This document shows, one piece after another, positions 4,720 to 23,849 of a DNA stretch of 64,000 nt. Position numbers and translations under genes: made by a program. The stretch is from Verrucomicrobiales bacterium (GTDB lineage Bacteria; Verrucomicrobiota; Verrucomicrobiia; Limisphaerales; UBA11358), in the NCBI GenBank assembly GCA_028712475.1, contig JAQTQB010000002.1, forward strand, positions 496,001 to 560,000, read 5' to 3'. Numbering within the stretch: position 1 is the first letter of the stretch; each line of letters begins with the position of its first letter. Under the pieces are notes generated by a model that was given only the letters and a program-made list of their open reading frames with translations, was not told the origin of the DNA and did no database searches.

Positions 4720-6675
4720 TCATTTCGCTCCTCCCATCACGGCGAGAATCGCCAGCGCGGCCAGGCCGAGCAGCAGATAGAAAATGTAGGATTGCACGCG
4801 GCCATGTTGCAGCCGGCGCACCGCCGCCGAAACGCGCATCACGAGCGAGCCGGCGGGTTCGATGACGCTTTCCAAAACCGTCTCCGGCGTGTGTTCTGCA
4901 AAATCGGAGCGGGCCGGAAAAATTTCTTTGGGCAGATGCGCGTGCTGTTCTGGCCGCAGAATCCACGCGAACCAGCCCGTAATAATTCCCGCAAACGAAC
5001 CGGCGGTGTATTGCATCCGCGGCGTCGGCGCGGCGTAGCCGCAGTCCCACGTTCCCGCGCGGCTCACGCCGTTGCACTGCACACGCCGCCACAGGAATAT
5101 CGCCGCCAAAATCACGAGCGCGGCCAGTGCAAGATGAAACGCGCCGAGCGCTACCAGCGGTGCGGACGGCAAAATGTTCGCGCCCGCCAGTGCTGGTTGC
5201 CATGTCGCTGCCGCCGTGGCGAGCGCCGGCCAGAATAAAATTGGCGCGAGGCCGATGGCCACGCACGCCGCGCCTAGCACAAGCATCGGCAGACGCATCC
5301 GCCAGCCGCATTCGTGGACGTGTTCAGCGATTTTGCCGCGCGGCAGGCCGAGGAAAACCACGCCACAGACTTTCACAAAACACGCCAGAGCCAGCGCGCC
5401 GGTCACGCCAAGAAACACAGCGGCGCAAATGGCGGCATACGCGGCCGGGCCGTGCGCGGACACTGCGTCGAACAGGCCGAGATAAATCAGCCATTCGCTG
5501 ACGAAACCGTTCAGCGGCGGCAGTCCGGTGATGGCCGTGGCGCCGAGCGCGAACAGGCTGGCGGTCCACGGCATCGCGCGCCAGAGTCCGCCGAGCCGGC
5601 TCATTTCCCGCGTGCCGGTGGCGTGCAAAACTGAACCCGCACCGAGAAACAGCAGCGCTTTGAACAGGCCGTGATTCCAGACGTGCAGCAGCGCGCCGGC
5701 AAGCGCAAGTTGTCCCCACACAGGATTTCCGTGTGACGCGGCGATCATCGCGAAGCCGAGGCCGATGAGGATGATGCCGATGTTTTCGACGCTGTGATAG
5801 GCGAGCAGGCGTTTGAGATCGTGCTGGCCAAGCGCGAATGCGACACCCAGCACCGCGCTGATGACACCGAGCGTAGCCACGACCCAGCCCGCCGAATCCG
5901 GCGCCGGCAGCCAGCCGGTGAACCGCACGAGTCCGTAAATGCCCATCTTGATGGCCATGCCGGACATGATGGCGGAAACGTGGCTCGGCGCGTTGGCGTG
6001 CGCGGACGGCAGCCAGATGTGCAGCGGAAAAATTCCCGCCTTGATGCCGAAGCCGACAAGCGCGAGCCAGAACAACGACGCGAGTCCGGAATGTTCGCGC
6101 ATCGGACCGAGTTCCCAGCTTCCCGTGCGCGCCGCGAGCAGCGCGAAGAAAGCGAACAGGCAGATCATCGCCACATGCGACGCGGCGAGGTAAAGCCAGC
6201 CGGCCGCGCGCGCTTCGCGACGCTGGCGTTCGAGCGAAACCAGGAAATACGCGCAAACGGTGAAGATTTCCCAGACGATGAGGAAGTGCAGGCCGTTCGC
6301 GCACAGCAGCACAAAGCCCATGTTGAGCAGCAGGCCGTTCCACCACGCGCGGCCCGGTGGCGCGGAAGCCGGATGATTTTTGTCGTTCCAGTATTCGCTC
6401 GAATACAAAGTTCCTGCGCCGCCGAGCACCGAAAGCAAAACCAAAAAAAAGGCGCTGATGCCGTCGAGTTGGAGGTGCAGCATTTCACCGCCGATGACGA
6501 AGTCTGGCTGCCAGTCCCAAACCGCACCGCTGGCGAGCATCCACACGGCTGCCGCAAACGCCGCGACTGCGCCAACGAGCGTGACTGCGAGCCAGGCGCG
6601 CGGCGATTTGAAGGCGCTGAAAATCCCGGTGACGAGTCCGACGCCGGCGATCAACAGCAGCCAGCCCGGTGTCAT
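4720..6675 (-). CDS. HyfB-like proton-pumping membrane subunit
   Basis: 651-residue NuoL/HyfB-type antiporter-like subunit. The family core is obvious: a conserved Glu in HFLIVWEIFTVCAYFLVS, GIKAGIFPLHIWLPSAHANAPSHVSAIMSG, HDLKRLLAYHSVENIGII and LLHVWNHGLFKALLFLGAGSVLH. About 14-16 hydrophobic helices and a C-terminal extension (about 480-650) are as in HyfB. Its start overlaps the stop of the upstream PTS-IIA gene by 4 bases, making that gene the head of the operon. With HyfF it gives the complex two putative ion pumps. Confidence 0.92.
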   Translation of the reverse strand: MTPGWLLLIAGVGLVTGIFSAFKSPRAWLAVTLVGAVAAFAAAVWMLASGAVWDWQPDFVIGGEMLHLQLDGISAFFLVLLSVLGGAGTLYSSEYWNDKNHPASAPPGRAWWNGLLLNMGFVLLCANGLHFLIVWEIFTVCAYFLVSLERQRREARAAGWLYLAASHVAMICLFAFFALLAARTGSWELGPMREHSGLASLFWLALVGFGIKAGIFPLHIWLPSAHANAPSHVSAIMSGMAIKMGIYGLVRFTGWLPAPDSAGWVVATLGVISAVLGVAFALGQHDLKRLLAYHSVENIGIILIGLGFAMIAASHGNPVWGQLALAGALLHVWNHGLFKALLFLGAGSVLHATGTREMSRLGGLWRAMPWTASLFALGATAITGLPPLNGFVSEWLIYLGLFDAVSAHGPAAYAAICAAVFLGVTGALALACFVKVCGVVFLGLPRGKIAEHVHECGWRMRLPMLVLGAACVAIGLAPILFWPALATAAATWQPALAGANILPSAPLVALGAFHLALAALVILAAIFLWRRVQCNGVSRAGTWDCGYAAPTPRMQYTAGSFAGIITGWFAWILRPEQHAHLPKEIFPARSDFAEHTPETVLESVIEPAGSLVMRVSAAVRRLQHGRVQSYIFYLLLGLAALAILAVMGGAK

Positions 6676-7367
6676 GCGTCACCTTCCTTTTTGCCGCCCG
6701 TTTCAGTGGCGGCGACGGCGGCGAAAATCTCGTCGTCGGACACGCTTTCGTTGATCAGCTTTCGCAGGTTGCCGCGCGACAGGGCCGTGCTCAACTGGGC
6801 AAGCAGTTCGAGGTGTGCGCGCGGCGACGGGGCGACGAAGAACAGCAGCCGCGTGATGGCCTGTTCGTCCGGCGCGGGTTCCTTGACGGCGAGCGCATCG
6901 CGGAGCAGCACGATGGCGAAAATGCCCGCGTCGCGCCCGAGCGCGATTGGCGTGCGCAAATGCGGCAATGCGAGGCCGCCGCCGACCAGCGCCCAGGAAA
7001 TGCCGTTCGGCGCGCGAAGCCGTTGCTGGAGCATCTGGTGGACGGACGGTGTCGCACCGGGAAGTTTGGCGACGATGTCCGCGAACAGATTAAGGACATT
7101 GGCGGCGGGAACGTCGCGCCAGATGCCGCCGGTGCGCAGCATGGTTTCGAGTTTTTTTCCGCCTTGAATTTTGGAGCGTTCCGGCGCGAGGAATCCGACC
7201 TTGGCGGCCAGCCCGTGCGATTCGGCCCAGTTCACCACTTGCGTGCGGTCGAAGAGCAGCCGTCCCCGGTCGGTCACATGCGGCAGCCCCTCGTTGCGAA
7301 TCCAGCCTTCCACGACGTTCTCTTCCACGCCGAGGGATTCGGCCAATTGGATGACGTTTAGAAACAT
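6672..7367 (-). CDS. HTH plus PTS EIIA (fructose/Ntr type) domain protein
   Basis: 231 residues. Residues 1-60 resemble a MerR/excisionase-type helix-turn-helix (IQLAESLGVEENVVEGWIRNEG). Residues about 80-220 resemble a PTS EIIA-2/PtsN domain with a candidate phospho-accepting His136 in LALPHLRTP. No EIIB or EIIC is nearby, so a regulatory rather than sugar-transport role is likely. It is the first gene of the Ehr operon and overlaps HyfB by 4 bases. It may tie expression or activity of the complex to phosphorylation state; that link is inference. Confidence 0.8.
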   Translation of the reverse strand: MFLNVIQLAESLGVEENVVEGWIRNEGLPHVTDRGRLLFDRTQVVNWAESHGLAAKVGFLAPERSKIQGGKKLETMLRTGGIWRDVPAANVLNLFADIVAKLPGATPSVHQMLQQRLRAPNGISWALVGGGLALPHLRTPIALGRDAGIFAIVLLRDALAVKEPAPDEQAITRLLFFVAPSPRAHLELLAQLSTALSRGNLRKLINESVSDDEIFAAVAATETGGKKEGDA

Positions 7368-7821
7368 CGGCTTTGTTATTGAAAGGGGTTGTTGATCGCC
7401 ATATCAATGACCGGCGGCTGGCAGTTTTCCTTCCAACTCATCGCAAGCAAAACAAAAACGCGCCGGTTGCGCAATGCAGTTTCTTGCGGGCATCTTGGTT
7501 CGACCAAAAAGTGACCGTCAATTTAGGGGCCTTGAAGCGAGGCCGGTCAAAACGGGCCGTGTGCGTTTTTATTTTCAAGTTGTTCAAATCAGGCCAGCGG
7601 ATGCAGGCAGGGTTCATGCATGGAAAATAGATTTGCTTGGTTTCGCGAGAAGAATGCCCGTGCTTGCAAGGATGGCATATCTGGTGCTTGGCATGGTGAA
7701 GAGTGACCATTGTTCTTACATACTTCTATTCGCAGCGGTTCGATGACAGTCATTTTTTCCAACGCCTGACCCTCATTGACATCTGCTGCGGGCCGCCTGC
7801 TGCCTCTTGATTTCATTTTGT

Positions 7822-7852
7822 CCGGACGGGCATGAAGCCATCGTCCGGTTTT
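7822..7852 (+). terminator. Leader hairpin with T-run
   Basis: A 7-bp outer stem CCGGACG (7822-7828) / CGTCCGG (7842-7848) encloses a short GGC/GCC stem, followed by TTTT. There is no plus-strand gene upstream for it to terminate, so it is either part of a leader RNA or a transcription barrier. Confidence 0.5.
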
Positions 7853-7892
7853 CTGATTTATTTCATTTCGTTTTAACTTAACTGGGGGGAGG

Positions 7893-7914
7893 GCAGTTTT
7901 ATAACTGCTTTTTT
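7893..7914 (+). terminator. Intrinsic terminator 46 nt before the operon start
   Basis: GCAGTT (7893-7898) pairs with AACTGC (7903-7908) and is followed directly by six T. It is a compact Rho-independent terminator immediately upstream of the first gene of the 14-gene operon, the usual place for an attenuator or riboswitch expression platform. Alternatively it blocks read-through into the operon. Confidence 0.55.
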
Positions 7915-7960
7915 AGCACAACCCATGTTTACGTCGTCCATCTGTTTGATAAGGCTAAAA

Positions 7961-8746
7961 ATGCGTGCGCTTGAACAAAGACCACTGCTCTGGCAGAACC
8001 TGACGTGGGAGGAAATCGCCTGCCTGCGCCGGTCAGGGGTTGATTTATGCCTGCTGCCCGCCGGAGCCACGGAACAGCACGGACCGCAACTCGGCACGGG
8101 AATGGACACCTGCACCGCCGTGAAATTATGCGAAGCCGTCTCGCGTGAAACCGGCGTGCCAGTGCTGCCCGCGCTAAGCTACGGCTGTTCGCTGGGGCAT
8201 TCGCGGCGCTGGCCGGGCACGATTGCGCTGCAACCACAAACGATCATGAACACCGTGGTCGAAATTTACGACTGGCTTTATGGCGCAGGTTTCAAGCGGC
8301 TCATCATCGTGAACGGACACGTCGGCAACGCCGCGCCGTTGCGCTGTGCGGTGGATCTGATCCGCAGCCGGTTTGACGATGCGTTCATCCGTGCCTGCAA
8401 CATCCCTGAAATCAGCCCGCGCATCCGTGCTGAATTTTTTGCCGACGCGGAGGACTGGCACGCCAACGCCGCCGAGACTTCGCTCATGCTCGCCGTGGCG
8501 ACGGAACAGGTGCGCGCCGATAAAATCGCCGCCAGCGATGACGAAGACCGGACCGCCGGACTGGTGTTCACGCATCCCGTCAACCGCACGAGCTTGAACG
8601 GCGTCACCGGTTTTCCGAGCCGCGCGAGCCGCGAGCAAGGGGAAAAATTATTCAGCTTCATGGTGGAAGACCTCACCGCGCTGGTCCGGCGCGCATTGAA
8701 GGAACAACCGCCGCTGGCCCAAAGTTATTTCACAACGCTTGCATGA
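7961..8746 (+). CDS. Creatininase-family amidohydrolase
   Basis: 261-residue metal-dependent hydrolase of the creatininase/MftE/ArfB family. Candidate metal ligands are Glu38 and His40 in [15 protein letters not shown], Asp49, His120 in [13 protein letters not shown] and Glu172 in [13 protein letters not shown]. The usual NGHGGN is NGHVGN here. The start at 7961 (MRALEQRP) follows AAGG at good spacing; an ATG at 7925 would add a poorly placed N-terminus. The stop overlaps the next gene by 4 bases. In this operon it may open a cyclic guanidino or ureido amide such as creatinine, but the family acts on several lactams and amides, so the substrate is inferred only. Confidence 0.82.
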
Positions 8747-10098
8747 AATCGTCCGCCGAACTCAAACGTCTCCGTCAAAAGCTCGTCAAACAGGGAGTCA
8801 AATACTGCATCGGCGCGTATGTGGACATCCACGGCGTGCCCAAGGGCAAGTTCGTGCCGATCGGGCACTTTGAGCATTTTGCGCACGGCTCGGAGCTTTA
8901 CACCGGCTACGCGCTGGACGGCCTCGGCCAGGCGCCGAACGACGACGAAATCTCCTCCGTGCCGGACATGAACCACATCATCCAGCTTCCGTGGCAGAAG
9001 GAAGTGGCGTGGATGCCCGCCGATAATCATTTTCACGGCAAACCCTATCCGCTCAACTCGCGCGTGCTGTTGAAAAACATTCTCGGCGAAGCGTCCAAAA
9101 TGGGCTTCAGCTTTAACCTCGGCATCGAGTGCGAAATTTACGTCCTGAAGCAGGATGAGCGCGGACGGCTCGCGGTGCCGAATCCCGACGACAATCTCGA
9201 CAAAAGCTGTTACGACGTAAAACGGTTCATGGATGTCTTTCCGTGGCTTGACGAAATGGTCACAACGATAAACGGACTCGGCTGGGATGTTTATTCACTC
9301 GACCACGAGGACGGCAATTCGCAGTTTGAATTTGATTTCAAATACTCCGACGCGCTGACGATGGCGGACCGCTACATCTTTTTCCGCTACATGGCCAAGA
9401 CCATCGCCGCCAAACACGGCCTGCTGGCGACCTTCATGCCCAAGCCGTTTGCGGACAAGACCGGCAACGGCGCGCACTTCAACATGTCGCTGGCCGACCG
9501 GCGTTCGGGTAAAAACCTTTTCGAGTCGAAAAAAGATCCGCGCGGGCTGGGGATTTCGCCGCTCGGTTATTCGTTCATCGCGGGCATCCTCCGGCATGGC
9601 CGCGCGTTGTGCGCGGTGCTCGCGCCGACCGTGAACAGTTACAAACGGCTCATCCGCCGTGGCGCGATGAGTTATTATTCATGGGCGCCGGTGTTCAATT
9701 CCTTCGGCACCAATAATCGCACCAACTCCATCCGCGTGCCGATGGGCGGCGGGCGTTGCGAAAGCCGCAATGCCGATTCCTCGTGCAATCCCTATCTCGC
9801 CGCCGCGCTCGTGCTGGCCGCCGGCCTTGAAGGCGTGCGCGAGAAGCTCGATCCGGGCGAGCCACATCACGAGAACCTTTACGAGCTTTCGCCCGCCGAA
9901 CTGGCGAAGATCGGCGTGCAGGAACTGCCGCGCACCTTGGGCGAGGCGGTGGACGCGTTCGCGGCGGATCCGTTCGTGGAAAAAGTCCTCGGCGCGGAAT
10001 TGCGGAATGAATTCATCAAATACAAACGCGCCGAATGGGAGGAATATCACCAGAGCGTGAGCCAGTGGGAGATTGACCGCTACGCGCGGCTGTTCTGA
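8743..10098 (+). CDS. Glutamine synthetase-like ligase (GlnT / gamma-glutamylmethylamide synthetase type)
   Basis: 451 residues, the usual length for GlnT-type enzymes. Beta-grasp motif [19 protein letters not shown] and catalytic-domain motifs [57 protein letters not shown] and [12 protein letters not shown] are present. It aligns by eye with gamma-glutamylmethylamide synthetase along its whole length. It would ligate glutamate to ammonia or to an amine. Being embedded with a Rieske oxygenase and a guanidine-type carboxylase, it may trap methylamine or ammonia released by the pathway. The preference between ammonia and amine cannot be read from the sequence. Confidence 0.85.
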
Positions 10099-10146
10099 AA
10101 AATTTGCGGACACAAAATCAAACCAACCAACAAAAAAAGGAAAAAC

Positions 10147-11118
10147 ATGAAACTGAAAACATTGCTCACAATCGCGCTCATCGGGCTGGCCGGACTGGCT
10201 GGCGTGAGCGCGGCACCCATCAAAATCGCTTACAGCGACTGGCCCGGTTACACGGTCCTCGAAGTCGCCAAGCAAAAAGGCTGGTTCAAGGACGCCGGCC
10301 TAGACGTGGATCTCGTCTGGTTCGATTACCTGCCTTCGATTGACGCTTTTTCCGCCGGCAAGGTGGACGCTGTGACCATCGTGGCCAGCGACGCGCTTGT
10401 CACTGGCGCGAGCGGCGGCAAAAGCAAGATCATCGCCTTGCTGGATTACAGCGAAGGCAGCGACATGATTGTCGGTGTGCCGGGAATCAATTCCATCAAA
10501 GACTTGAAAGGCAAAAAAATTGGCATTGAGGTCACGCTGGTGGAACACATGCTTCTGTTGCAGGCGCTCAAGGACAACGGCATGAGCCAGTCCGACGTGG
10601 AACTGGTGAACACCGCGACGGACAAGACCCCGGAGACGCTGGCTTCCGGCAAGGTTGCCGCCATCGGCGCGTGGTATCCGATCTCCGGCCAGGCGCTCAA
10701 ACAGGTTCCCGGTTCCAAAAAATTGTTCACCAGCGCCGAGGCCAAGGGGCTGATCTACGACGTGCTGGCAGTCAGCCCGACGAGCTACGCGGCGCACAAG
10801 GAGGAATGGGCGAAAATCGCGGCCGTTTATTACAAGTGCGTTGACTACTTGAAAGACCCGAAGACGGCGGACGACGCGGTGAAAATCATGGCGGCGAAAG
10901 CCGGCGCGGACGCGGCGGAATACGCCAAGAACATTCCCGGCACGCATTTCCTGACGCTCGCGGAGGCGAAAGCGGCCTTCAAAAAAGGGCCGGGGCTTGA
11001 CTCGATCTACGGTTCAATGGCCATCGGCAACAAGTTCAACCTCGACAACGCCGTTTACAAGGAGTCGCAGAAACCGGAGAGCTATCTGGTTCCCGGAGTT
11101 GTCAAGGGATTGAAATAA
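10147..11118 (+). CDS. ABC transporter periplasmic substrate-binding protein (NMT1/TauA-like)
   Basis: 323 residues with a classic signal peptide (MKLKTLLTIALIGLAGLAGVSA) and a mature start around APIKIAYSDW. The SsuA/THI5/NMT1-type fold is shown by GYTVLEVAKQKGWFKDAGLDVDL and DALVTGASGGKSKIIAL. An AAGGA ribosome binding site precedes the ATG. It sits directly before the permease and ATPase genes, as in nitrate/taurine and urea-carboxylase-linked importers. The ligand is probably the N-rich substrate of this operon. Confidence 0.88.
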   Translation: MKLKTLLTIALIGLAGLAGVSAAPIKIAYSDWPGYTVLEVAKQKGWFKDAGLDVDLVWFDYLPSIDAFSAGKVDAVTIVASDALVTGASGGKSKIIALLDYSEGSDMIVGVPGINSIKDLKGKKIGIEVTLVEHMLLLQALKDNGMSQSDVELVNTATDKTPETLASGKVAAIGAWYPISGQALKQVPGSKKLFTSAEAKGLIYDVLAVSPTSYAAHKEEWAKIAAVYYKCVDYLKDPKTADDAVKIMAAKAGADAAEYAKNIPGTHFLTLAEAKAAFKKGPGLDSIYGSMAIGNKFNLDNAVYKESQKPESYLVPGVVKGLK

Positions 11119-11143
11119 CGCGCCCGCCGCAACATTCCGCACC

Positions 11144-12202
11144 ATGGCAAGCCACGACTGGCTGGGTTTGAAACAGGAGCTGCCGCGCAAGCGGCGGCTC
11201 CTCCTGGTCGGGCTGTCGTTCCTCATTCCGCTCCTGGTCTGGAGCGCGGTGAGCTATGTCCCGTGGCTGTGGCATCCGCTCGTCCATGTGACTGATCCGG
11301 GCAGCGTGGACTACTTCACCGATAACATGGATGTGCCGTGCGCGGATTTTGACAGGGAACTGGCGAAGGCGCTCGCGGCGGGAACGGCCCTGCCCGTGGG
11401 GTATCCGGCCAATCCCCTCTATCTGCCGCCGCCGCACAAAGTGGCGGCAGCCTTTTACACCGCTTTCAAAACGCCGCCACGATTGCCCAACGAACCGTGG
11501 CTGCACGAAAGCCTGGGGCACAGCATCCGCACGATTTTTCTGGGCTTTCTTTTTTCATCGCTGCTGGGCGTGCCCATCGGAATTCTCTGCGGCGCCTATC
11601 GCTTCTTCGCAAAACTGCAGGAGCCGTTCATCGAATTTTTCCGTTATCTGCCCGCGCCTGCGTTCGGCGCGTTGTGCGTTGCGATTCTCGGCATTGATGA
11701 CGCGCCGAAAATCGCCATCATTTTCATCGGCACATTTTTCCAGCAGGTGCTGATCATCGGGAACAGCGTGCGCAAGGTGGATCCCGCATTGCTCGAAGCC
11801 GCCCAGACTCTTGGCGCGAAAGGCTGGCGGCTCGTCAGCCGCGTGGTCATTCCCGCCTCCATCACGGACATCTACACCGACATGCGCATCCTGCTCGGCT
11901 GGGCGTGGACTTATTTGATCGTCGCGGAAGTCGTCGGCACCATGTCCGGCATCACCTTTTTCATCAACCAGCAGGCGCGCTACCGGAACTTTGACAATGT
12001 TTATGCCGCAATCGCGATGATCGGCATCATCGGTTTTTTCACGGACATGTTTCTCGCCTGGGTCGGCGGCATTCTATTCCCGTGGAAACGCAAGTCGCGG
12101 CGCACGGCGGGAAGCCAGCCTTTGTTCCCGCTGATAAAACTTAAAATTTTGAACCCCACAGCGCCGCCAAAAACAGGAGCCATGCCTCATGTCGTCCAGT
12201 GA
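11144..12202 (+). CDS. ABC transporter permease
   Basis: 352 residues. One N-terminal transmembrane helix (about 21-45) is followed by a ~75-residue periplasmic segment, then the SsuC/TauC-type BPD_transp_1 domain. The permease signature is around LLEAAQTLGAKGWRLVSRVVIPASI (EAA loop). The long N-terminal periplasmic insertion is also seen in permeases linked to urea-carboxylase operons. It overlaps the ATPase gene by 14 bases. Confidence 0.88.
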   Translation: MASHDWLGLKQELPRKRRLLLVGLSFLIPLLVWSAVSYVPWLWHPLVHVTDPGSVDYFTDNMDVPCADFDRELAKALAAGTALPVGYPANPLYLPPPHKVAAAFYTAFKTPPRLPNEPWLHESLGHSIRTIFLGFLFSSLLGVPIGILCGAYRFFAKLQEPFIEFFRYLPAPAFGALCVAILGIDDAPKIAIIFIGTFFQQVLIIGNSVRKVDPALLEAAQTLGAKGWRLVSRVVIPASITDIYTDMRILLGWAWTYLIVAEVVGTMSGITFFINQQARYRNFDNVYAAIAMIGIIGFFTDMFLAWVGGILFPWKRKSRRTAGSQPLFPLIKLKILNPTAPPKTGAMPHVVQ

Positions 12203-13094
12203 ATTAAAACTTCCCGATTACCGCGAACAGGCGCCCGCCGTGGCTGCGCGCTTCCAGCGCATCCGCGAGCGTCCGGTGATTTTGAGCGTGCGCGATTTGA
12301 AGAAATCTTTCGGCGTGAACGGTGCCACGCACATTGTGTTTGACAACGTTTCGCTCAATATTCACCGCCGCGAATTCGTTTGTGTGGTGGGGCCGTCGGG
12401 CTGCGGGAAATCCACGCTGGCCCGGATCGTTGCCGGCCTGGATGAAGCGTCCGGCGGCGAGATTTTGCTCGATGGGCAGGCGGTAGCCGGGCCGGGATCC
12501 GATCGCGGCATGGTATTCCAGGGCTACACGCTTTTCCCGTGGCTCACCGTGCGGCGCAACGTGATGTTCGGCCTCCAGATGCATGGCAAGGATGTCAACA
12601 CCGCCGAGGCCGAGGCGCGCGAATGGCTCGACATGGTCGGCCTGGCGAAGTTTGAAAATTCCTACCCGCACGAGCTTTCCGGCGGCATGAAACAGCGGGT
12701 CGCCATCGCCCGTGCGCTTGCGAACAACCCGCGCATCTTGATCATGGACGAACCCTTTGCCGCGCTGGATGCCCAGACGCGCTGCCAGATGCAGGGTTAC
12801 TTGATGCAAATCTGGAAAAAAGTGGACGTCACGATTTTGTTCATCACGCACGATCTGGACGAGGCGGCGCTGCTCGCCGACCGGATTCTGGTCATGGGCA
12901 CGAATCCCGGACGCGTCGTGGAGTTCATCGAAAATCCCGTGCCGCGACCGCGTAGTCCGGATCAGTTCATCTCGCCGGAATTTCTTGCGCTCAAAAAGCG
13001 GCTGGAAGAGCACATCCATCCGCCCATGGAAATGGAAGCGGCGGAAAAACTGCCCATGATCAAACTCACGGAGGCTGGCGATGAGGTTGAATGA
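12189..13094 (+). CDS. ABC transporter ATP-binding protein
   Basis: 301-residue SsuB/TauB/NrtD-type ATPase. Walker A GPSGCGKST is at about 68-76, the signature is LSGGMKQRVAIARAL, Walker B is ILIMDEPFAALD, and the H-loop lies in LFITHDLDEA. It has an N-terminal ~28-residue extension and a C-terminal tail beyond the domain. It overlaps both flanking genes (14 bases each), so the importer is co-translated with the deacetylase-like gene. Confidence 0.92.
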   Translation: MSSSELKLPDYREQAPAVAARFQRIRERPVILSVRDLKKSFGVNGATHIVFDNVSLNIHRREFVCVVGPSGCGKSTLARIVAGLDEASGGEILLDGQAVAGPGSDRGMVFQGYTLFPWLTVRRNVMFGLQMHGKDVNTAEAEAREWLDMVGLAKFENSYPHELSGGMKQRVAIARALANNPRILIMDEPFAALDAQTRCQMQGYLMQIWKKVDVTILFITHDLDEAALLADRILVMGTNPGRVVEFIENPVPRPRSPDQFISPEFLALKKRLEEHIHPPMEMEAAEKLPMIKLTEAGDEVE

Positions 13095-13989
13095 GCAGGC
13101 ACAATCCGCCGGCCGATTTTTGCCGCCGCCCCGCTTTCTCTGGCCACACGGCAATCGTTGCGCCGCCATGCTGTGCTTCGATGTGGACGGCGAGACCACC
13201 GCGCTGTCCGAGAATGCCGCGCTCGCCAGCCGCCGCACTTTGATGTCGCAATGCGAATATGGCCCGCGCATCGGCGTGCCGCGTTTGCTCGGTTTGCTCA
13301 AGCACCTCGAAGTGCCCGCGACGTTTTTCGTTCCCGGCTACATGGCGGAAAAACATCCGCGCATGGTCGAGGCGATTATTGCGGGGGGTCACGAAATTGG
13401 ACTTCATGGTTATCTCCACGAAAAGCTCGCGTATCTGACCGAGGCTGAAGAAGAAGCCATTCTGCTGCGCAGCCTCGAAATTTTGACCCGGCTCACCGGT
13501 TCGCGCCCCGCCGGTTTTCGCGCGCCGTGGTTTGAAATCAATCCGTGGACGCCTTCTCTGCTCGTCAAACACAACCTTGCCTATTGCGCCAGTGAAATGG
13601 GCGATGACGTGCCGTATTTCCACGAGAACGGTCTCGTCGAAATTCCCGGCCAGTGGATGCTTGAGGACTGGGAACAATTCGCCTTCAACGCCGATCCCGC
13701 GTGGGGCTTCGTCCCCGAGAACTGTGAAAAAGTTTTTGACCTCTGGTGGCGTGAGTTCGAGGCGATGCACGACTTCGGCTGCTGCTTCGTGCTTACGCTG
13801 CATCCGTGGTTGAGCGGCCGTCCCTCGCGCGTGCGGCTGCTGGAAAGCCTCGTCACCGCGATGCGCGAAAAACCCGGTGTCTGGCTCGCGCGTGGTCGCG
13901 AGATCGCGGACTATTTTCAAAATCACCCCGCAGCGCGGCGCGAACTGGACTTTGATGCCGCGCCAAAACCTGAACCGGCCAAATCATGA
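13081..13989 (+). CDS. Polysaccharide-deacetylase (NodB/PuuE-like) family hydrolase
   Basis: 302 residues with NodB-homology motifs: CFDVDGE (catalytic/metal Asp pair), GHEIGLHGYLHEKL (metal His pair), GFRAPWFEINPWT and a terminal FVLTLHPWLSGRPSR. There is no signal peptide, so it is cytoplasmic, arguing against cell-wall polysaccharide. The closest functional idea is the PuuE-type allantoinase branch of this superfamily, which hydrolyses cyclic ureides. That would fit a ureido/guanidino pathway but is unproven. Confidence 0.8.
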   Translation: MRLNEQAQSAGRFLPPPRFLWPHGNRCAAMLCFDVDGETTALSENAALASRRTLMSQCEYGPRIGVPRLLGLLKHLEVPATFFVPGYMAEKHPRMVEAIIAGGHEIGLHGYLHEKLAYLTEAEEEAILLRSLEILTRLTGSRPAGFRAPWFEINPWTPSLLVKHNLAYCASEMGDDVPYFHENGLVEIPGQWMLEDWEQFAFNADPAWGFVPENCEKVFDLWWREFEAMHDFGCCFVLTLHPWLSGRPSRVRLLESLVTAMREKPGVWLARGREIADYFQNHPAARRELDFDAAPKPEPAKS

Positions 13990-15341
13990 GTTCCACCGCC
14001 TTTGAATGGAAACCCGCGTTCGAGCCGCTGGCGTTCGCGCGCCAGTCCAGCACGCGCACGGCGCAGAAACCGCTGTCGCTCGCGGAAATCCAGCGCGGGA
14101 TTTGCGAGGCGGCGGGCCGCCCATTGAACCAGGCGACCACGTTGCCCGCGCAGGCTTACACCAGCGAAGAATTTTTCGCGTGGGAACTGGAGCACGTCCT
14201 GCGTGCCGGCTGGCAATGCGTCGGGCATGTTTCGCAAATCCCGGCACCCGGCGATTTTTTGAACCTTGACCTGCTCGGCGAGCCGCTCATCGTCGTGCGT
14301 GGCAAGGACGAATCCGTCCGCGTGCTGTCGCGCGTCTGCCCGCATCGTGCGATGGACATCATGCCGGAAGGTTTCGGCTATGACGGACATTCAGCGGCGC
14401 AGTCGCGCGACGGCAAACCCGGCTGCGGCCACACGCGGCTGTTTCTCTGCCCGTATCACGCCTGGACGTTTGAACTGGACGGCAAACTGAAAGCCTGCCC
14501 GGAAATGCACCAGGCAGAAAACTTTTGCCGGGACGAATTCACCCTCAAACCATTTCGAAGCGAAACCTGGCAGGGTTTTATTTTCGTGAACCTGGATGGA
14601 AATGCGCCGCCACTGGCAGAAGATCTGGGCGAAATGGCCGATGACCTTGCCGCCTTCCAACTGGACAAAATGAAGCTCGTCATCGCGCGCGAATGGGATT
14701 GTCCGTTCAACTGGAAGGTGCTCGTGGAAAATTTCATGGAGAGCTACCATCATCTCGGCATCCATCACAAGACGCTCCAGCCGATGATGCCCGCGCGCGA
14801 TACCTGGACGGAACGCGAACGACGTTGTTATGTCCGCGCGCACCTGCCCTACAAGGAATCCGTGCGCGACGCGTATCTGGAATTTGAACGGCGCGGCGAT
14901 TTTTCCGATGATCTGCCGCCGCTCGCCGGCTTGACCGGCGCGCAAAAGTCCGAATGGGGGTTGTTTCTCATCCACCCGACATTTTTGCTGGCGACCGCGC
15001 CCGACCGCGTCATCTGGTATCGCCTCCAGCCGCTCGGTCCAGACCGGCTGAAGCTGATCACGACGACACTCGTGTTCCCGGAAACCGCCGCGCGAGAAAA
15101 TTTTCCGCGCCTGCGCGAGCAAGCCCTGAAACTGCTGACGGAATTCCATCTTGAAGACATGGAAGTTTGCACCGCCGTGCAACGCGGCTTTTATGCGAGC
15201 GGCTGGCAGCCCGGACGCTTGAGCCATCTGGAAATGACCATCTGGCTGTTTCACCGCTACCTGGCCGCGCGCATCCGGGGTGTCTGGCCGACGGATGACC
15301 GGCCGGCCGCGCCCGGACAACGACGAAATGGAGATTCATGA
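13986..15341 (+). CDS. Rieske non-heme iron oxygenase, alpha subunit
   Basis: 451 residues. The Rieske [2Fe-2S] ligands are Cys118/His120 (RVCPHRAMD) and Cys155/His158 (LCPYHAW). The spacer between the two pairs is about 34 residues, longer than the ~17 usual in the family because of a Gly-rich insertion. The mononuclear iron site is ENFMESYHHLGIHHK (HX4H around 255-260), with a later Asp in EDMEVCTAVQRG. It resembles the carnitine/glycine-betaine/choline monooxygenase branch that cleaves N-alkyl bonds. No ferredoxin reductase is encoded in the window, so an external reductase is needed. It overlaps both neighbours by 4 bases. Confidence 0.88.
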   Translation: MSSTAFEWKPAFEPLAFARQSSTRTAQKPLSLAEIQRGICEAAGRPLNQATTLPAQAYTSEEFFAWELEHVLRAGWQCVGHVSQIPAPGDFLNLDLLGEPLIVVRGKDESVRVLSRVCPHRAMDIMPEGFGYDGHSAAQSRDGKPGCGHTRLFLCPYHAWTFELDGKLKACPEMHQAENFCRDEFTLKPFRSETWQGFIFVNLDGNAPPLAEDLGEMADDLAAFQLDKMKLVIAREWDCPFNWKVLVENFMESYHHLGIHHKTLQPMMPARDTWTERERRCYVRAHLPYKESVRDAYLEFERRGDFSDDLPPLAGLTGAQKSEWGLFLIHPTFLLATAPDRVIWYRLQPLGPDRLKLITTTLVFPETAARENFPRLREQALKLLTEFHLEDMEVCTAVQRGFYASGWQPGRLSHLEMTIWLFHRYLAARIRGVWPTDDRPAAPGQRRNGDS

Positions 15342-16114
15342 TTTGTGAAATTCCAGTTTCATCGTGCCAGTCGCGCGCTCAATCCTGGCGTGACGACGAG
15401 GCGACGCCGCTCATGGCCGGGCTGCCGGCGGGTGAATTCGTGATGGGCGAAAATGTCGGCGATAAATTCGCGACCGACACGGAGCGTCCCGCTCACCGCG
15501 TCCGTATTTCGGAGCCGTTTGCGCTCGGATGTTTTCCGGTCACGGTCGGCGAGTTCCGGCATTTTAGTCCCGGCCACGCGCCTGATGATGCGGATGAACT
15601 GCCTGTGGTTCGCGTGAACTGGCGCGAAGCGCTCGCCTACTGCGACTGGCTTTCCGGGCGAACTGGCCGAGCCTGCCGGCTTGCCAGCGAAGCGGAATGG
15701 GAATTTGCCTGCCGCGCCGGTTCGCGCTCGCCGTTTGCGTGTGGCGATGAAATTTCACCGTCGCAGGCGAATTTCTTTTACGACGAAAATGGCCTTCGCA
15801 TCGGAACTGGCCGGCGCACGCCGGTTGGAAAATACGCGCCGAACGCATTTGGTCTTTTCGACCTTCACGGCAACGTCTGCGAATGGGTCGCCGATTCGTG
15901 GCATCCGGATTATCACGGCGCACCGGTGAACGGCAGCGCGTGGATTGACCGAAACGATTCGCGGCGCGTGATCCGCGGCGGCGCGTGGGATTATCTGCCG
16001 CGACTGTTACGCAGCGCGTGGCGCGACTGGCGGCCAATTGATTTTTGCGCGGACAACATCGGTTTCCGCGTGGCGACCAGTGATTTGAAAAAAATTCCGG
16101 AGGCGGCGCGATGA
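15338..16114 (+). CDS. SUMF1/FGE-sulfatase-like domain protein (EgtB/formylglycine-enzyme superfamily)
   Basis: 258 residues. After ~25 N-terminal residues the whole protein is a SUMF1-type C-lectin-like fold: AGLPAGEFVMGEN, PVVRVNWREALAYCDWLS, CRLASEAEWEFACRAG, NAFGLFDLHGNVCEWVADSW and RRVIRGGAWDY. It lacks the DinB domain of EgtB. I see no obvious formylglycine-enzyme cysteine pair near the C-terminus. Its role between a Rieske oxygenase and an isomerase is unknown; it could be an iron-dependent oxidase, a maturation factor or a structural partner. Confidence 0.78.
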   Translation: MICEIPVSSCQSRAQSWRDDEATPLMAGLPAGEFVMGENVGDKFATDTERPAHRVRISEPFALGCFPVTVGEFRHFSPGHAPDDADELPVVRVNWREALAYCDWLSGRTGRACRLASEAEWEFACRAGSRSPFACGDEISPSQANFFYDENGLRIGTGRRTPVGKYAPNAFGLFDLHGNVCEWVADSWHPDYHGAPVNGSAWIDRNDSRRVIRGGAWDYLPRLLRSAWRDWRPIDFCADNIGFRVATSDLKKIPEAAR

Positions 16115-17034
16115 AACTGAAAGTCTTTAAGACGCTTTGGGGCCACACCGGCAGCCTGGACGAGGCCATCGCTGCGTGTCATCAGCACGGTTTTGACGGT
16201 ATTGAAGGCCAACCACCGCCGAGCCTGGCGGAGCGCCGGGAATTTCGTGCGAAATTGGACGCTGCCGGACTCGATTACATCGCGGAAATCTGCACGGCGG
16301 GCAGCTACGTTCCGCACCGAAACCTCTCGCCCTTCAAACACCTTGAATCGCTGCAAGCCTGCGCCGAAACCGCATTGGATTGCCGGCCGCATTTCCTCAC
16401 CGTTATCGCCGGCTGCGACGCTTGGAGCGTCGGGGAGAGCGTAGATTTTTTTGGCGCGGCGATTCGGATTGCAGATGGATTTGGGATCAACGCCAGTTTC
16501 GAGACGCATCGCAGCCGCTCGTTTTTCAATCCCTGGACAACCCGCGACATTTTGCGGCAGTTGCCCGCGCTCAAGCTCACCTGCGATTTTTCCCATTGGT
16601 GTGTCGTGTGCGAACGGCTCATTGACACGGAGCCGGATGTGATCGCGCTCTGTGCCGAACGCGCGCATCACATCCACGCACGCGTCGGCTACGATCAAGG
16701 CCCGCAAGTGCCGCATCCCGCCGCGCCGGAATTTCGCGCCGCACTGGAGGCGCACGAACGCTGGTGGACGCAAATCTGGCAAAGCCAGTTGGCGCGCAAC
16801 ATGGCCGTCAGCACGATGACGCCGGAGTTCGGGCCGGATGGCTATTTGCATTGCGCGCCGTTCACCGGCGAGCCGGTTGCGGATCTGGCCGAGATCAACG
16901 CCTGGATGGCGCAACGTCAAAAACGGAAGTTCGACGAAACATTCATGGCCGGGGCTGCCAGGACATTTGTGGACCGGGTTTCAAACCCTCTCGCGCTGGA
17001 GGGAAAAAATCATTACGCTCGAACGAACCGCTGA
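16111..17034 (+). CDS. Sugar-phosphate isomerase/epimerase-like TIM-barrel protein
   Basis: 307 residues of the xylose-isomerase-like TIM barrel family (AP_endonuc_2). Motifs include GFDGIEGQ, INASFETHRS (a metal-binding Glu position), LKLTCDFSHW and HIHARVGYDQGPQVP. The tail carries a RTFVDRVSNP segment. It overlaps the SUMF1-like gene by 4 bases and precedes the carboxylase gene by 17 bases. The family covers isomerases, dehydratases and hydrolases, so the reaction is not assignable. Confidence 0.78.
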   Translation: MKLKVFKTLWGHTGSLDEAIAACHQHGFDGIEGQPPPSLAERREFRAKLDAAGLDYIAEICTAGSYVPHRNLSPFKHLESLQACAETALDCRPHFLTVIAGCDAWSVGESVDFFGAAIRIADGFGINASFETHRSRSFFNPWTTRDILRQLPALKLTCDFSHWCVVCERLIDTEPDVIALCAERAHHIHARVGYDQGPQVPHPAAPEFRAALEAHERWWTQIWQSQLARNMAVSTMTPEFGPDGYLHCAPFTGEPVADLAEINAWMAQRQKRKFDETFMAGAARTFVDRVSNPLALEGKNHYARTNR

Positions 17035-17051
17035 AAGCCTGTTGAAAATTT

Positions 17052-20000
17052 ATGTTTAAAAAAGTTCTCATCGCCAATCGTGGCGCGATTGCCTGCCGGA
17101 TCATCCGCTCGCTCAAAAAAATGGGCGTGGGTTCGGTCGCCATTTTTTCCGATGCGGACGCGAATTCGCTTCACGTCTCGCAGGCGGACGAGGCGGTGGG
17201 CATCGGCGGCTTGACGGCGGCGGAAAGCTACCTTGATTTTGAAAAAGTTTTCGCTGCGGCGCGCAAAACCGGCGCGGAAGCGATTCATCCCGGCTACGGT
17301 TTCTTGAGCGAGAACGCCGACTTTGCCGAGGCTTGTGCGCGGGAAGGTTTTGTCTTCGTCGGACCGACGCCGCAGCACATGCGTGACTTCGGGCTCAAGC
17401 ACACCGCGCGGGCGCTGGCGCAGCAAAACGGCGTGCCGATGCTGCCGGGCAGCGAATTGCTCGACAGTCTGGCGCACGCGCAAGCGGAAGCGGCGCGGAT
17501 CGGCTATCCGGTCATGCTCAAAAGCACCGCCGGCGGCGGCGGCATCGGCATGAGGATGTGCGGCGATGAAGCCGCGCTGGCCGAGGCATTTGAATCCGTG
17601 AAACGCATGGCCGCGAGCGCCTTCAAGCAGAGCGGCGTTTATCTCGAAAAATTTGTCGGCGTCGCGCGGCACATTGAGGTGCAGATCTTCGGCGATGGAA
17701 AAGGCAACGTCGTTGCGCTGGGCGAACGCGATTGCTCGGCTCAGCGACGCAATCAAAAGGTCGTCGAGGAGACGCCCGCGCCCGGCTTGTCGGAGGAATT
17801 GCGCCGGTCGCTGCTGGATTCCGCCGTGCGGCTGACGCGCGAGGCGGGTTATCAATCTGCGGGAACGGTCGAGTTCGTTTTCGATGTGAAGGAACTCAAA
17901 TTTTACTTCCTTGAAGTGAACACGCGGCTGCAGGTCGAGCACGGAGTGACCGAGGAAGTCACCGGCGTTGACCTCGTGGAATGGATGATCAAGCAGGCGG
18001 CGGGCGAACTGGATTTGTCCGGCTTCAAAGCCGCGCCGCGCGGCGCGTCCATTCAAGTCCGGCTTTACGCGGAAGATCCGAACAAGAATTTCCAGCCCAG
18101 CTCCGGCGTGCTGACGGAAGCTGTTTTTCCGGCGAAGGCGCGCATCGAAACTTGGGTTGAGCGTGGTTCGGAAATCCCGCCGTTCTACGATCCGATGATC
18201 GCCAAGATCATCGTGAAGGCGGCGACGCGGAAAGAAGCCGTGGCCGCGTTGCAAGAGGTGCTGGCCGGGACGAAGGTCGCCGGCATCGAATGCAATCTCG
18301 AATATCTCCGGCAGGTGATCAGCAGCGAGGAATTCGCCGCTGGCGACATTCACACCAAATGGCTTGCGACGTTTCCGTATCGGCCTGCGACGATTGATGT
18401 CATCGAGCCGGGCACGCAAAGCAGCGTGCAGGATTATCCCGGACGCACCGGCTATTGGGCCGTAGGCGTGCCACCGTCGGGACCGATGGATGATTACGCG
18501 TTTCGCGTGGCCAACGAACTGGCCGGAAATCCCACTGACGCGGCCGGCTTGGAAATCACGTTGAGCGGGCCGGTGTTGAAATTCAATCTGGATGCGACCA
18601 TCGCGCTCACCGGCGCGGTCATGGAAGCCGACCTCGACGGCAATCCGGTGAACTTCTGGCAAAGCATCCACGTCCGCGCCGGCAGCGTCTTGCGCCTGCA
18701 GAAAATCAAGGCGGCCGGTTGTCGCGCTTATCTCGCGGTCCAGGGCGGCTTTGACGTGCCGGATTATCTCGGCAGCAAATCCACCTTCAGCCTCGGAAAA
18801 TTCGGCGGTCACGCCGGTCGCACGCTGCGCCACGGCGACGTGCTGCATGTGCATCGCGTGGCCGAACCATTCACGACCATGCGCACCACACCGGCGGCGC
18901 TGGTGCCGAAATACAATTCGCATTGGGAGATCGGCGTGCTTTACGGCCCGCACGCCGCGCCGGATTTTTTCACGGAAGAATTCATCGGCACATTTTTCAC
19001 TACGGACTGGAAGGTGCATTACAATTCCAACCGCTCCGGCATCCGTTTGATAGGCCCGAAGCCCGGCTTCGCCCGCACGGACGGCGGCGACGCGGGCCTG
19101 CATCCCTCCAACATCCACGACACGGAATACGCCATCGGCACGATTTGTTTCACGGGTGACATGCCGATCATTCTCTCAAAAGACGGCCCCAGCCTCGGCG
19201 GCTTCGTCTGCCCGGCGACCATCGCCAAGGCGGAATTCTGGAAGGTCGGCCAGCTCCGGCCCGGCGACACGATCCGTTTCGTGCGGATGAAATTAGCCGA
19301 GGCGCTCGCCACCGAACGCAGCCAGGATGAGGCGATCCGCAAGCTGGAGGGAAAATCGTTTTCGTCCGCGCCGAACCTCGTCACGAAACAATCCGCGCCG
19401 AGTGAACTGGCAATCCTCCACAGCATCCCGGCGTCGGCCACGAATCCCGGCGTTGTTTACCGGCAGGCGGGCGATAAATTTCTGCTGATCGAATACGGGC
19501 CGCTCGCGCTCGATTTCGAGCTGCGCTTTCGCGCGCACCTGCTCATGGAATGGTTTGCGACGCATCCGGTGGAAGGCGTCATCGAGCTATCGCCCGGCGT
19601 GCGTTCGTTGCAGATCAATTTCGACAGCCGCGTCATTTCGCTGGAAAAGCTGCTCGGCATTCTCGTGCAGGCAGAGAATGAATTGCCCTCGGTTGATTCG
19701 CTCGAAGTGCCGACGCGCATTTTGCGGATGCCGCTGTCTTACGATGACGCTGGCATCCGGCTCACGATTGAAAAATATCAGCAGTCCGTCCGCGCCAAGG
19801 CGCCGTGGCTGCCGAGCAACATTGAATTCATCCGCCGCATGAACGGCCTCGACAGTGTTGATCAGGTGCATGAGACCGTTTTTGCCGCCAACTATCTCGT
19901 GCTCGGCCTCGGCGACGTTTACCTCGGCGCGCCGTGCGCGGTGCCCGTTGATCCGCGCCATCGTTTCGTGACTACGAAATATAATCCCGCGCGCACGTTC

Positions 20001-20669
20001 ACCGTTGAAAACGTCGTCGGCATCGGCGGCGTTTACATGTGCATCTATGGAATGGAAGGACCGGGCGGCTATCAACTGTTTGGCCGCACCGCGCAGGTCT
20101 GGAACACATATCGCAGCTCGCGCGAATTTGAGCCGGGCAAACCTTGGCTGCTTCGCTTCTTCGACCAGATCCGTTTCTATCCGGTGTCGGCCAAGGAACT
20201 CCTCGATTTCCGCCAGTCGTTCCTGCACGGACAGGTGAAGCTCGACATCCAGGAAGATATTTTCAGTTTTCCGAAATACCGGAAATTTTTGCAGGATAAC
20301 GAGGCGAGCATCACAACCTTCCGCAACCAGCAACAAAAAGCGTTTGCCGAAGAGCGCGAGCGTTGGGCGATTGACGGCTCCGGTGCGGTGGAGACCGAAC
20401 CGGAAGTCGAAGCCGTGGCTGATGAAATCTCTGTGCCGCCGAACGGACAGCTCATCGCCTCGCCCATCACCGGCAACGTCTGGATTGTGCTGGCGAAGGA
20501 AGGCGACCGCGTGACTGCCGGCCAGAAAGTCGTGGTCGTCGAGGCCATGAAAATGGAGGTCGGCGTCGAAGCGCCGTTTGCCGGCGTCATCACAAAAATG
20601 GCCGCCGTGCCGGGCAAACTGGTCAACGCCGGCCAGCCGCTGGCGGTCATCGAAAAGGAGAATGTATGA
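17052..20669 (+). CDS. Urea/guanidine carboxylase (biotin-dependent)
   Basis: 1205 residues, the full length of single-chain urea carboxylases. Order: biotin carboxylase (about 1-450; KSTAGGGGIGMRMC ATP loop, FLEVNTRLQVEHGVTE), AHS2/KipA half (about 455-770; PGTQSSVQDYPGRTGYWAVGVPPSGPMDDYAFR), AHS1/KipI half (about 800-1040; GLGDVYLGAPCAVPVDPR), and a C-terminal biotinyl domain with Lys1167 in VVEAMKMEV. It carboxylates urea to allophanate or, as shown for homologues paired with carboxyguanidine deiminase, guanidine to carboxyguanidine. The two associated genes downstream favour the guanidine reading. I cannot place the published substrate-deciding residue reliably by eye. Confidence 0.93.
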   Translation: MFKKVLIANRGAIACRIIRSLKKMGVGSVAIFSDADANSLHVSQADEAVGIGGLTAAESYLDFEKVFAAARKTGAEAIHPGYGFLSENADFAEACAREGFVFVGPTPQHMRDFGLKHTARALAQQNGVPMLPGSELLDSLAHAQAEAARIGYPVMLKSTAGGGGIGMRMCGDEAALAEAFESVKRMAASAFKQSGVYLEKFVGVARHIEVQIFGDGKGNVVALGERDCSAQRRNQKVVEETPAPGLSEELRRSLLDSAVRLTREAGYQSAGTVEFVFDVKELKFYFLEVNTRLQVEHGVTEEVTGVDLVEWMIKQAAGELDLSGFKAAPRGASIQVRLYAEDPNKNFQPSSGVLTEAVFPAKARIETWVERGSEIPPFYDPMIAKIIVKAATRKEAVAALQEVLAGTKVAGIECNLEYLRQVISSEEFAAGDIHTKWLATFPYRPATIDVIEPGTQSSVQDYPGRTGYWAVGVPPSGPMDDYAFRVANELAGNPTDAAGLEITLSGPVLKFNLDATIALTGAVMEADLDGNPVNFWQSIHVRAGSVLRLQKIKAAGCRAYLAVQGGFDVPDYLGSKSTFSLGKFGGHAGRTLRHGDVLHVHRVAEPFTTMRTTPAALVPKYNSHWEIGVLYGPHAAPDFFTEEFIGTFFTTDWKVHYNSNRSGIRLIGPKPGFARTDGGDAGLHPSNIHDTEYAIGTICFTGDMPIILSKDGPSLGGFVCPATIAKAEFWKVGQLRPGDTIRFVRMKLAEALATERSQDEAIRKLEGKSFSSAPNLVTKQSAPSELAILHSIPASATNPGVVYRQAGDKFLLIEYGPLALDFELRFRAHLLMEWFATHPVEGVIELSPGVRSLQINFDSRVISLEKLLGILVQAENELPSVDSLEVPTRILRMPLSYDDAGIRLTIEKYQQSVRAKAPWLPSNIEFIRRMNGLDSVDQVHETVFAANYLVLGLGDVYLGAPCAVPVDPRHRFVTTKYNPARTFTVENVVGIGGVYMCIYGMEGPGGYQLFGRTAQVWNTYRSSREFEPGKPWLLRFFDQIRFYPVSAKELLDFRQSFLHGQVKLDIQEDIFSFPKYRKFLQDNEASITTFRNQQQKAFAEERERWAIDGSGAVETEPEVEAVADEISVPPNGQLIASPITGNVWIVLAKEGDRVTAGQKVVVVEAMKMEVGVEAPFAGVITKMAAVPGKLVNAGQPLAVIEKENV

Positions 20670-22468: not shown

Positions 22469-22476
22469 ATTTTATC

Positions 22477-23199
22477 ATGAACAACGAAACCATTCTGTTT
22501 GAGGAAACGCTGCCGGGCGGCGGGCTTTGGTCGTGGCGGCTGCAGCGGCACACGACGTTGCGGCTGACCGACCTGGAAGGCGGCGCGAATGCCGGCATCA
22601 TGGCCTACAACGCCGATCAGCCGCTCGACCGGCTTAATCTGCCGGACACGCTCAAGGCGCAATACACCGCCAAACTCACACGCGGCCATGTCCTGATGAG
22701 CGACATGGGCCACGCGCTGCTTTCAATCACCGCTGACACGGCGGGCTGGCACGATCCGCTCGGCGGTCATGGCAACGCGGCGCAGGTCAAAAGCAAATAT
22801 GGCGTGGCGACGTATCAGGAAAAGCGCAACGACTGGTATCGCAATGCGCATGACAATTTTCTCATCGAACTCGGCAAGCATGGTCTCGGCAAACGCGACC
22901 TGGTGGCGAACGTGAATTTTTTCAGCCGCCTCGACGTGGACGCGGAAGGCGTGATGAAATTTCATCCAGGAAATTCAAAAGCCGGCGCTCACGCTGACTT
23001 GCGCGCGGAAATGAACGTGCTGGTGGTGTTGAACACCTGCCAGCATCCGCTTGACCCAAATCCAAAATACGCGCCGAAGCCGGTCAAGCTGACCGTGCTG
23101 AAAACGCCGCCGCCGGGGCCGGACGATTTCTGCCGCAATTTACGGGGCGAAAACCAGCGCAGCTTCATATTAACCGAACGACTTTTTCTGGGAGCCTGA
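22477..23199 (+). CDS. Urea carboxylase-associated protein 2 / carboxyguanidine deiminase subunit
   Basis: 240 residues starting at ATG 22477; a longer open frame begins far upstream inside the allophanate hydrolase gene and is an artefact. Family motifs are [50 protein letters not shown] and [23 protein letters not shown]. Homologues pair with the next gene and have been shown to form carboxyguanidine deiminase (CgdAB), converting carboxyguanidine to allophanate. The gene lies 8 bases after the hydrolase stop. Confidence 0.9.
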
Positions 23200-23201
23200 A
23201 C

Positions 23202-23849
23202 ATGAGCACATTTATTTTGACCGAGAGCCGACTTGATCCGGCGAGGGCCGTTTACGATTTCACGCTGCCAGCCGGCGACGGCTGGATGCACGAAATCAAA
23301 CGCGGCCAGACCTTTCGCATCGTTGACCTGGACGGCAATCAGGCCGTGGACACGCTGTTTTACAACGCGCACGACATGAGCGACCGCTATTCGGCGCAGG
23401 ACACCATCCGCGAGCAGGGCGGCATTTATCTGACGACTGGAACGAAACTGATTTCGAGCGAAGGCAATCTCCTCGCCACCATTGTCGCGGACACCTGCGG
23501 CCGGCACGACACGATCGGCGGCGCGTGTGCGGCGGAGAGCAACCAGGTGCGTTACGCGCTCGACAAGCGCTGGATGCACAGTTGCCGCGACACGTTCATG
23601 CTGGTGATCTCGCGCTGGGGACGCGGCGTGACGAAATGCGACATCACGCACAACATCAATTTTTTCATGAACGTGCCGGTCACGCCGGATGGAAAACTGT
23701 CGTTCGCGGACGGCGTCAGCGCGGGCGGACGGTATGTCGAGCTGCGCGCAGAAATGGATTTGATCTGCCTGATTTCCAATTGCCCGCAACTGAACAACCC
23801 CTGCAACGCCTACAACCCCACGCCGGTGCGCCTGTTGATCTGGCCATGA
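23202..23849 (+). CDS. Urea carboxylase-associated protein 1 / carboxyguanidine deiminase subunit
   Basis: 215 residues. Motifs are [68 protein letters not shown] and [34 protein letters not shown]. It is paralogous to the preceding gene (same LDG/YNA.D core), consistent with a heterodimer. Presence of both subunits next to a carboxylase and an allophanate hydrolase is the hallmark of guanidine-assimilation operons. Confidence 0.92.

Follow-up and report, generated by a model that had tools for sequence, protein, structure and literature searches.

Bacterial operons for guanidine degradation are candidates for control by guanidine riboswitches, and the question raised by the locus described here is what would take the place of such a riboswitch when none precedes the operon. 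The locus lies within a 64-kb stretch of Verrucomicrobiota DNA, referred to throughout as the window, in which a first-pass annotation had reported two consecutive terminator-like hairpins (7822-7852 and 7893-7914) in front of a guanidine-type operon, with no plus-strand gene before them, and had proposed either an attenuator or a new riboswitch platform.

The operon and its intergenic region

The guanidine-type operon is confirmed by its gene content. The first gene encodes a creatininase-family protein (PF02633; 7961-8746, plus strand), and the rest of the operon (8743-23849, plus strand) comprises genes with Pfam and NCBIfam matches to a type III glutamine synthetase, an NMT1-type ABC importer, a deacetylase-like protein, a Rieske oxygenase, a formylglycine-generating enzyme (FGE)-like protein, a TIM-barrel protein, a urea/guanidine carboxylase, an allophanate hydrolase, and two DUF1989 (carboxyguanidine deiminase-type) subunits. 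A review (PMC12186494) describes the guanidine carboxylase pathway as made up of carboxylase, a pair of DUF1989 subunits, and allophanate hydrolase, and the description of PF09347/CgdAB in another source (PMC11410670) identifies the DUF1989 pair as a carboxyguanidine deiminase. Given their tight spacing on one strand, the genes from 7961 to 23849 are probably co-transcribed. The creatininase-family gene starts at the ATG at 7961, not at 7925, because the start region of its relative at locus L025, AAAAATGCG, aligns there and because homology in relatives begins nearby, at residues 5-26 of the longer open reading frame (ORF) and mostly at residues 13-23. Upstream, the divergent neighbor is a PTS-EIIA/HTH gene (6672-7367, minus strand), and the survey of genes and domains found the interval between the two (7368-7960) to be intergenic, without a gene of ordinary size.

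No covariance match to the guanidine riboswitch families RF00442, RF01068, and RF01763 was found in the leader. At the Rfam gathering threshold the whole window contains only a tRNA, and relaxing the search to E 10 in 7368-8000 gave no match of any family, which bears out the earlier remark that no ykkC, mini-ykkC, or ykkC-III consensus is visible. The companion remark, that related operons are often controlled by guanidine riboswitches, is right insofar as orthologous operons elsewhere can carry one: an Rfam scan of 23 loci with the orthologous genes detected Guanidine-II in three (L066, L067, and L094; the 23 comprise a set of 12, two of them leader-bearing, and a set of 11). Among genomes bearing the leader described below, neither Guanidine-I nor Guanidine-II was found in the eight of nine searched (all but G834).

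A leader peptide behind a sigma54-type promoter

The plus strand before the hairpins does hold a gene, contrary to the first-pass annotation. A 35-codon ORF with a GTG start (7703-7810, plus strand) ends 11 nt before hairpin 1 and encodes the peptide VTIVLTYFYSQRFDDSHFFQRLTLIDICCGPPAAS, with the core TLIDICCGPP at codons 23-32 (7769-7798, plus strand). The ORF recurs in relatives, and comparison of the leaders of the closest of them places the conserved part 5′ of the hairpins, with a three-base rhythm. Over 22 compared codons, the window and L025 differ by 11 synonymous and no non-synonymous changes. Across eight leaders (28 pairs), pN/pS was 0.25 in frame and rose to 2.1 and 1.9 when the frame was shifted; variable positions per 22 codons numbered 20 at third positions, 9 at first positions, and 10 at second positions. 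This is a conserved short ORF with protein-level selection upstream of an operon, an attribute of regulatory leader peptides, and because it is selected at the protein level, the ORF is translated.

Selection on the peptide is distributed unevenly. When ten leaders were compared by region, pN/pS fell from 0.81 in codons 2-12 to 0.34 in codons 13-22 and 0.06 in codons 23-32, where nine of the ten residues are invariant in every leader and the exception, codon 26, is Asp or Val. Past Pro32, each of the ten leaders has two to five residues with little in common, followed by a stop. The start codon (ATG, GTG, or TTG) occupies the identical position in 10/10 leaders, while at any other offset from -12 to +12 codons a start codon occurs in at most three of the ten; starting at the same codon despite the drift of codons 2-12 means that the distance from the start to the Pro-Pro pair is kept. 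Constraint at the C-terminus up to a proposed stall site, combined with a drifting N-terminus, is a feature of ribosome-arrest peptides, and a fixed length together with constraint that rises toward Gly-Pro-Pro is expected of a peptide acting inside the exit tunnel. The ORF at 7703-7810 is, then, a translated peptide selected at the protein level, with a fixed length to CCGPP, and arrest would be expected at Pro31-Pro32.

A sigma54 (-24/-12) promoter, TGGCATATCTGGTGCT, was identified immediately upstream by pattern match (7673-7688, plus strand). The consensus of such elements is GG-N10-GC. In all ten leaders the pattern TGGYAYN6TGCW (reported also as TGGYAYN6TGCT) occurs within the 90 nt that precede the ORF, and 7673-7688 is its only match on either strand of the window; the background across all loci is 96 sites in 2502 kb. 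An RpoN DNA-binding domain is encoded in each of the eight leader-bearing genomes searched, so that both the -24/-12 element (10/10 leaders) and the sigma factor that would recognize it (8/8 genomes) accompany the leader. With the transcription start placed 12 nt past the -12 element, initiation in the window is predicted at about position 7699, and the predicted leader start codon falls at +3 to +6 in eight leaders and at +29 in the other two (L026 and L027). Because the sigma54 site is immediately upstream, most leaders (8/10) would be translated from a nearly leaderless mRNA. A search for an enhancer motif shared by the sequences 5′ of the sigma54 sites gave no convincing candidate, as the best 7-mer, GTTTTGA, occurred in six of ten leaders and shuffled sequences reached five. 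Separately, L118, L028, and L128 share similar stretches near GTGARCAG..TGAACAATT, approximately 100-180 nt upstream of the sigma54 site, which could perhaps be an activator site.

A promoter of this class in every leader would also suit a leader that senses general nitrogen or amino-acid supply, for example of cysteine, by codon-dependent pausing and not by recognition of a guanidino compound, as would the two adjacent Cys codons, which are of one codon type only in 10/10 leaders. Yet there are no Cys codons beyond these two, constraint covers all of TLI.ICCGPP instead of a run of a single codon, and the targets are guanidine genes, not cysteine genes, which together make codon-dependent pausing quite unlikely.

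Both hairpins reported in the first-pass annotation exist. Hairpin 1 (7822-7848, plus strand) consists of 7 bp and 3 bp separated by a 2-nt bulge and closed by the loop AUGAA; its predicted energy is -16.4 kcal/mol (z -2.90, 1/200 shuffles as stable), and T-rich sequence follows it. Hairpin 2 (GCAGTT-TTAT-AACTGC, 7893-7908) is followed by a T6 tract (7909-7914), making the plus-strand element at 7893-7914 terminator-like; its energy is -12.1 kcal/mol (z -4.81, 0/200 shuffles as stable). The stability of 7780-7925 as a whole is unremarkable (z -1.18, 27/200 shuffles as stable). A terminator scan of 6500-9000 called neither hairpin and returned 3 sites against 3.8 expected; under a looser definition only hairpin 2 qualifies, and 10 of 100 shuffled versions of the window leader also contain such a site. 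The hairpin-plus-T-tract arrangement occurs in the window only and is absent from the other eight of nine leaders, and in relatives no T tract follows the counterpart of hairpin 1. Neither the hairpin sequences nor the sequence and structures of the spacer between the leader ORF and the first gene, which measures 70-185 nt in nine leaders, are conserved between relatives. What recurs to some degree is position: four of nine leaders (window, L029, L028, and L118) have a significant (p<0.05) hairpin at +6 to +50 past the stop, with a combined Stouffer Z of -6.0 that comes largely from L029, while the next two stretches give -2.1 and 0.4. In a fold model, masking part of the RNA with a stalled ribosome shifted the predicted pairing of the downstream start region in no consistent direction, toward neither opening nor closing, across nine leaders. 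A Rho-type C-rich bubble was also considered and was not convincing, the spacers being mixed, with best C/G ratios from 1.00 to 2.43.

These features bear on two further explanations. Classic attenuation would have the intrinsic terminator at 7893-7914 read through upon ribosome- or ligand-driven refolding, with the peptide serving as a coupling device, and hairpin 2 with its T6 tract does sit past the leader stop and ahead of the first gene. Because a terminator-like site is present in just one of nine leaders, arises in a tenth of the shuffled window leaders, and is not conserved in sequence, attenuation is very unlikely, and the notion of tandem terminator-like hairpins acting as an attenuator is not supported. 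A new guanidine riboswitch, that is, an RNA aptamer within 7703-7960, would accord with the Guanidine-II elements of some orthologous operons and with the positional recurrence of a hairpin past the stop. It is highly improbable, as the spacer sequence and its structures differ between relatives, conservation tracks codons, and even a permissive Rfam search is empty. The earlier expectation that a different leader RNA acts here survives to the extent that a different leader element does act, but a riboswitch platform is unsupported, the conserved unit being a translated peptide behind a sigma54-type promoter; likewise, conservation of the leader among relatives extends to the ORF and the promoter, kept in ten leaders, but not to the hairpin sequences.

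Distribution of the leader and the genes behind it

Ten distinct leaders were found in nine Verrucomicrobiota genomes: those of the window, L025, L026, L027, L029, L028, L030, L106, L118, and L128, the latter two in one genome. A six-frame search of 104 loci and the window recovered the leader in the window and in L025-L030, duplicates of loci aside. L025-L030 are the six closest of 80 glutamine synthetase loci (identity at least 78%), and all six have the leader; it was not found in the other 74, where flanks of at most 6 kb, often shorter, leave absence unproven. In the order, 6 of 320 genomes matched a strict DNA pattern for LIDICCGPP, and none of the 320 matched the reversed-pattern control. 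A wider leader pattern matched 4 of 384 genomes of the class, with no control matches, and 1 of 142 genomes in the order of G834, namely G834 itself. When guanidinase was searched for in the order, 3 of 313 genomes contained it, and all three have the leader. A leader profile run against 387 genomes of the phylum recovered the window's own genome (E 3.8e-23); four further matches (E 0.002-0.008) were dismissed as chance, two having an internal stop and the others lying inside frames of 755 and 99 codons. As guanidinase itself was found in 0/387 genomes of the same kind of sample, that sample is uninformative about absence of the leader. Searches of plasmids and of viral contigs found no leader homologues. 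All leaders come from one class and are therefore not fully independent.

Behind five leaders (window, L025, L026, L027, and L029) lies a carboxylase-type operon, with creatininase, glutamine synthetase, and ABC importer next and carboxylase, allophanate hydrolase, and DUF1989 further on; the middle genes of L027, from importer to carboxylase, gave no match. The Rieske oxygenase and FGE-like genes (13986-16114 in the window) are retained in most leader-bearing operons. Four other leaders (L028, L118, L030, and L106) precede a guanidinase operon or gene. An arginase-family enzyme comes first in L028, L118, and L030, followed by creatininase and synthetase, with no carboxylase matched on the stretches examined, and in L106 the arginase-family enzyme follows the leader at the contig end. 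The L028 enzyme matched solved guanidine hydrolases far above other arginase relatives (9fek, which we take to be a guanidine hydrolase, at E 2e-156; 7esr/7oi1 at E 1.4e-154). The 7OI1 structure is that of the Synechocystis guanidinase, according to PMC11410670. The guanidinases of L028 (3663-5123), L118, L030, and L106 carry a His-rich N-terminal extension of approximately 110 residues, possibly for metal storage, which precedes the part that matches the solved enzymes.

Genome G144 contains, in addition to L118, a second copy of the leader (L128; contig C51, approximately 18.2 kb) with its own sigma54 site. Downstream of this copy lie a short remnant resembling the start of a guanidinase and then a gene for a His-rich membrane protein without any Pfam or NCBIfam match. 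We presume a resemblance of this protein to nickel/cobalt permeases, and the label of nickel permease was dropped for want of support from either database. The same leader peptide thus stands before different genes of one pathway, with carboxylase operons behind five copies, guanidinase behind four, and the membrane protein behind one. The carboxylase and guanidinase routes are non-homologous, and a leader retained across a change of degrading enzyme points to a signal that belongs to the pathway and not to one enzyme. The leader element is linked to guanidine catabolism, and its promoter element is conserved.

Protein-level selection alone does not prove regulation in cis, and the ORF might instead encode a small trans-acting protein, such as an adaptor or a metal-binding peptide, that is merely co-transcribed with the operon. 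Its invariant Cys-Cys pair could bind metal, and guanidinases use nickel, according to PMC12186494. Against this, the N-terminal third is almost unconstrained while the length to CCGPP is fixed in all ten leaders, the ORF keeps close to the first gene in the nine leaders measured (70-185 nt), and in G144 the additional copy, under a promoter of its own, stands before a different gene, as expected of a cis-acting element. A trans-acting role is accordingly unlikely.

Proposed mechanism and comparison with known systems

The interval 7673-7960 is, on balance, probably a sigma54-driven nascent-peptide (ribosome-arrest) leader that stands in place of a guanidine riboswitch. We infer the arrest itself, its dependence on a small molecule, and the control of downstream transcription or translation. 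The promoter at 7673-7688, probably together with an activator responsive to nitrogen status, would start the mRNA a few bases before the ORF, and the nascent TLIDICCGPP, aided by the upstream FDD..FF, would arrest the ribosome at Pro31-Pro32. A constraint gradient followed by an unconserved tail would be expected if function lay in the part of the chain that faces the tunnel behind a stall site and not in the remainder. The signal for arrest would be a pathway metabolite, with guanidine itself or a similar guanidino compound as the likeliest candidate. As with TnaC or SpeFL, the presence or absence of the stalled ribosome would decide the fate of the spacer and its hairpins and, with it, expression of the guanidine genes.

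The nature of the effector bears on the carboxylase (17052-20669, plus strand). At the position of Asn1330 of the K. lactis urea carboxylase (alignment numbering; residue 699 in the window), which we take to be also the position of the Asp of guanidine carboxylases, Asp is present in 17 of 19 carboxylases from a motif search and Cys in the window and L027. The residue is likewise Cys in L025 and L026, and Asn in L029; L120, L121, and L122 were examined as well. Asp is the residue assigned to guanidine carboxylases in PMC12186494. With Cys, or Asn in L029, in place of Asp, guanidine is less certain as substrate and effector in the window clade. The window-type carboxylase may therefore act preferentially on another compound, with a substituted guanidine as a possible effector, a role that the Rieske oxygenase of the operon would, speculatively, fit.

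A more ambitious reading, which we offer tentatively, is that the exit tunnel and nascent ICCGPP form a sensor of guanidine or guanidino compounds that stands in for the riboswitch in one lineage. In this scheme sigma54 would report the need for nitrogen and the arrest peptide, on its nearly leaderless mRNA, the presence of substrate, and the two together would gate alternative guanidine-degrading routes. To our knowledge, all known guanidine sensors are riboswitches, and it would be unusual for a nearly leaderless leader of the arrest type to be driven by sigma54. The guanidine sensors in the available text of one review are riboswitches (PMC12186494), and the literature consulted, which includes few subscription journals and was available in part, yielded no paper on this element in searches covering its peptide core, leader peptides of Verrucomicrobia, leader peptides linked to guanidine, and leaderless sigma54 leaders. 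If the reading is true, a ribosome-based peptide sensor would be a convergent solution to the guanidine riboswitch and would offer a defined 32-residue chain with a small ligand. Even with another effector, a leader this conserved marks a regulon and its genes in the poorly studied Verrucomicrobiota.

Several known systems offer points of comparison. Guanidine-I to -III riboswitches, like the window leader, sit before guanidine-degradation operons, but they are aptamers, whereas the conserved unit of the window leader is a peptide with no RNA family match. TnaC undergoes metabolite-dependent arrest near its C-terminus that controls downstream genes, and the same is proposed for the window leader. 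Both are short peptides before a catabolic operon, in the case of TnaC the tryptophanase operon of E. coli (PMC8429421). They differ in that their sequences are unrelated and their pathways distinct, and a sigma54 promoter precedes the window leader, whose start is nearly leaderless and whose arrest is proposed from its conservation. The ornithine-sensing SpeFL is similar in length (approximately 34 residues), in belonging to the pathway of a nitrogen-rich small molecule, and in preceding a catabolic gene. By eye, its C-terminus, which we take to be FDFHFFNAR, loosely resembles FDDSHFFQR of the window leader; unlike SpeFL, the window leader continues with TLIDICCGPP. Finally, polyproline-type arrest, which involves PP motifs and EF-P (PMC11611912 and PMC4176338), makes Gly-Pro-Pro a plausible stall point. 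The window leader has only two prolines and is constrained for approximately 20 residues upstream of them, which points to more than a bare Pro-Pro pause.
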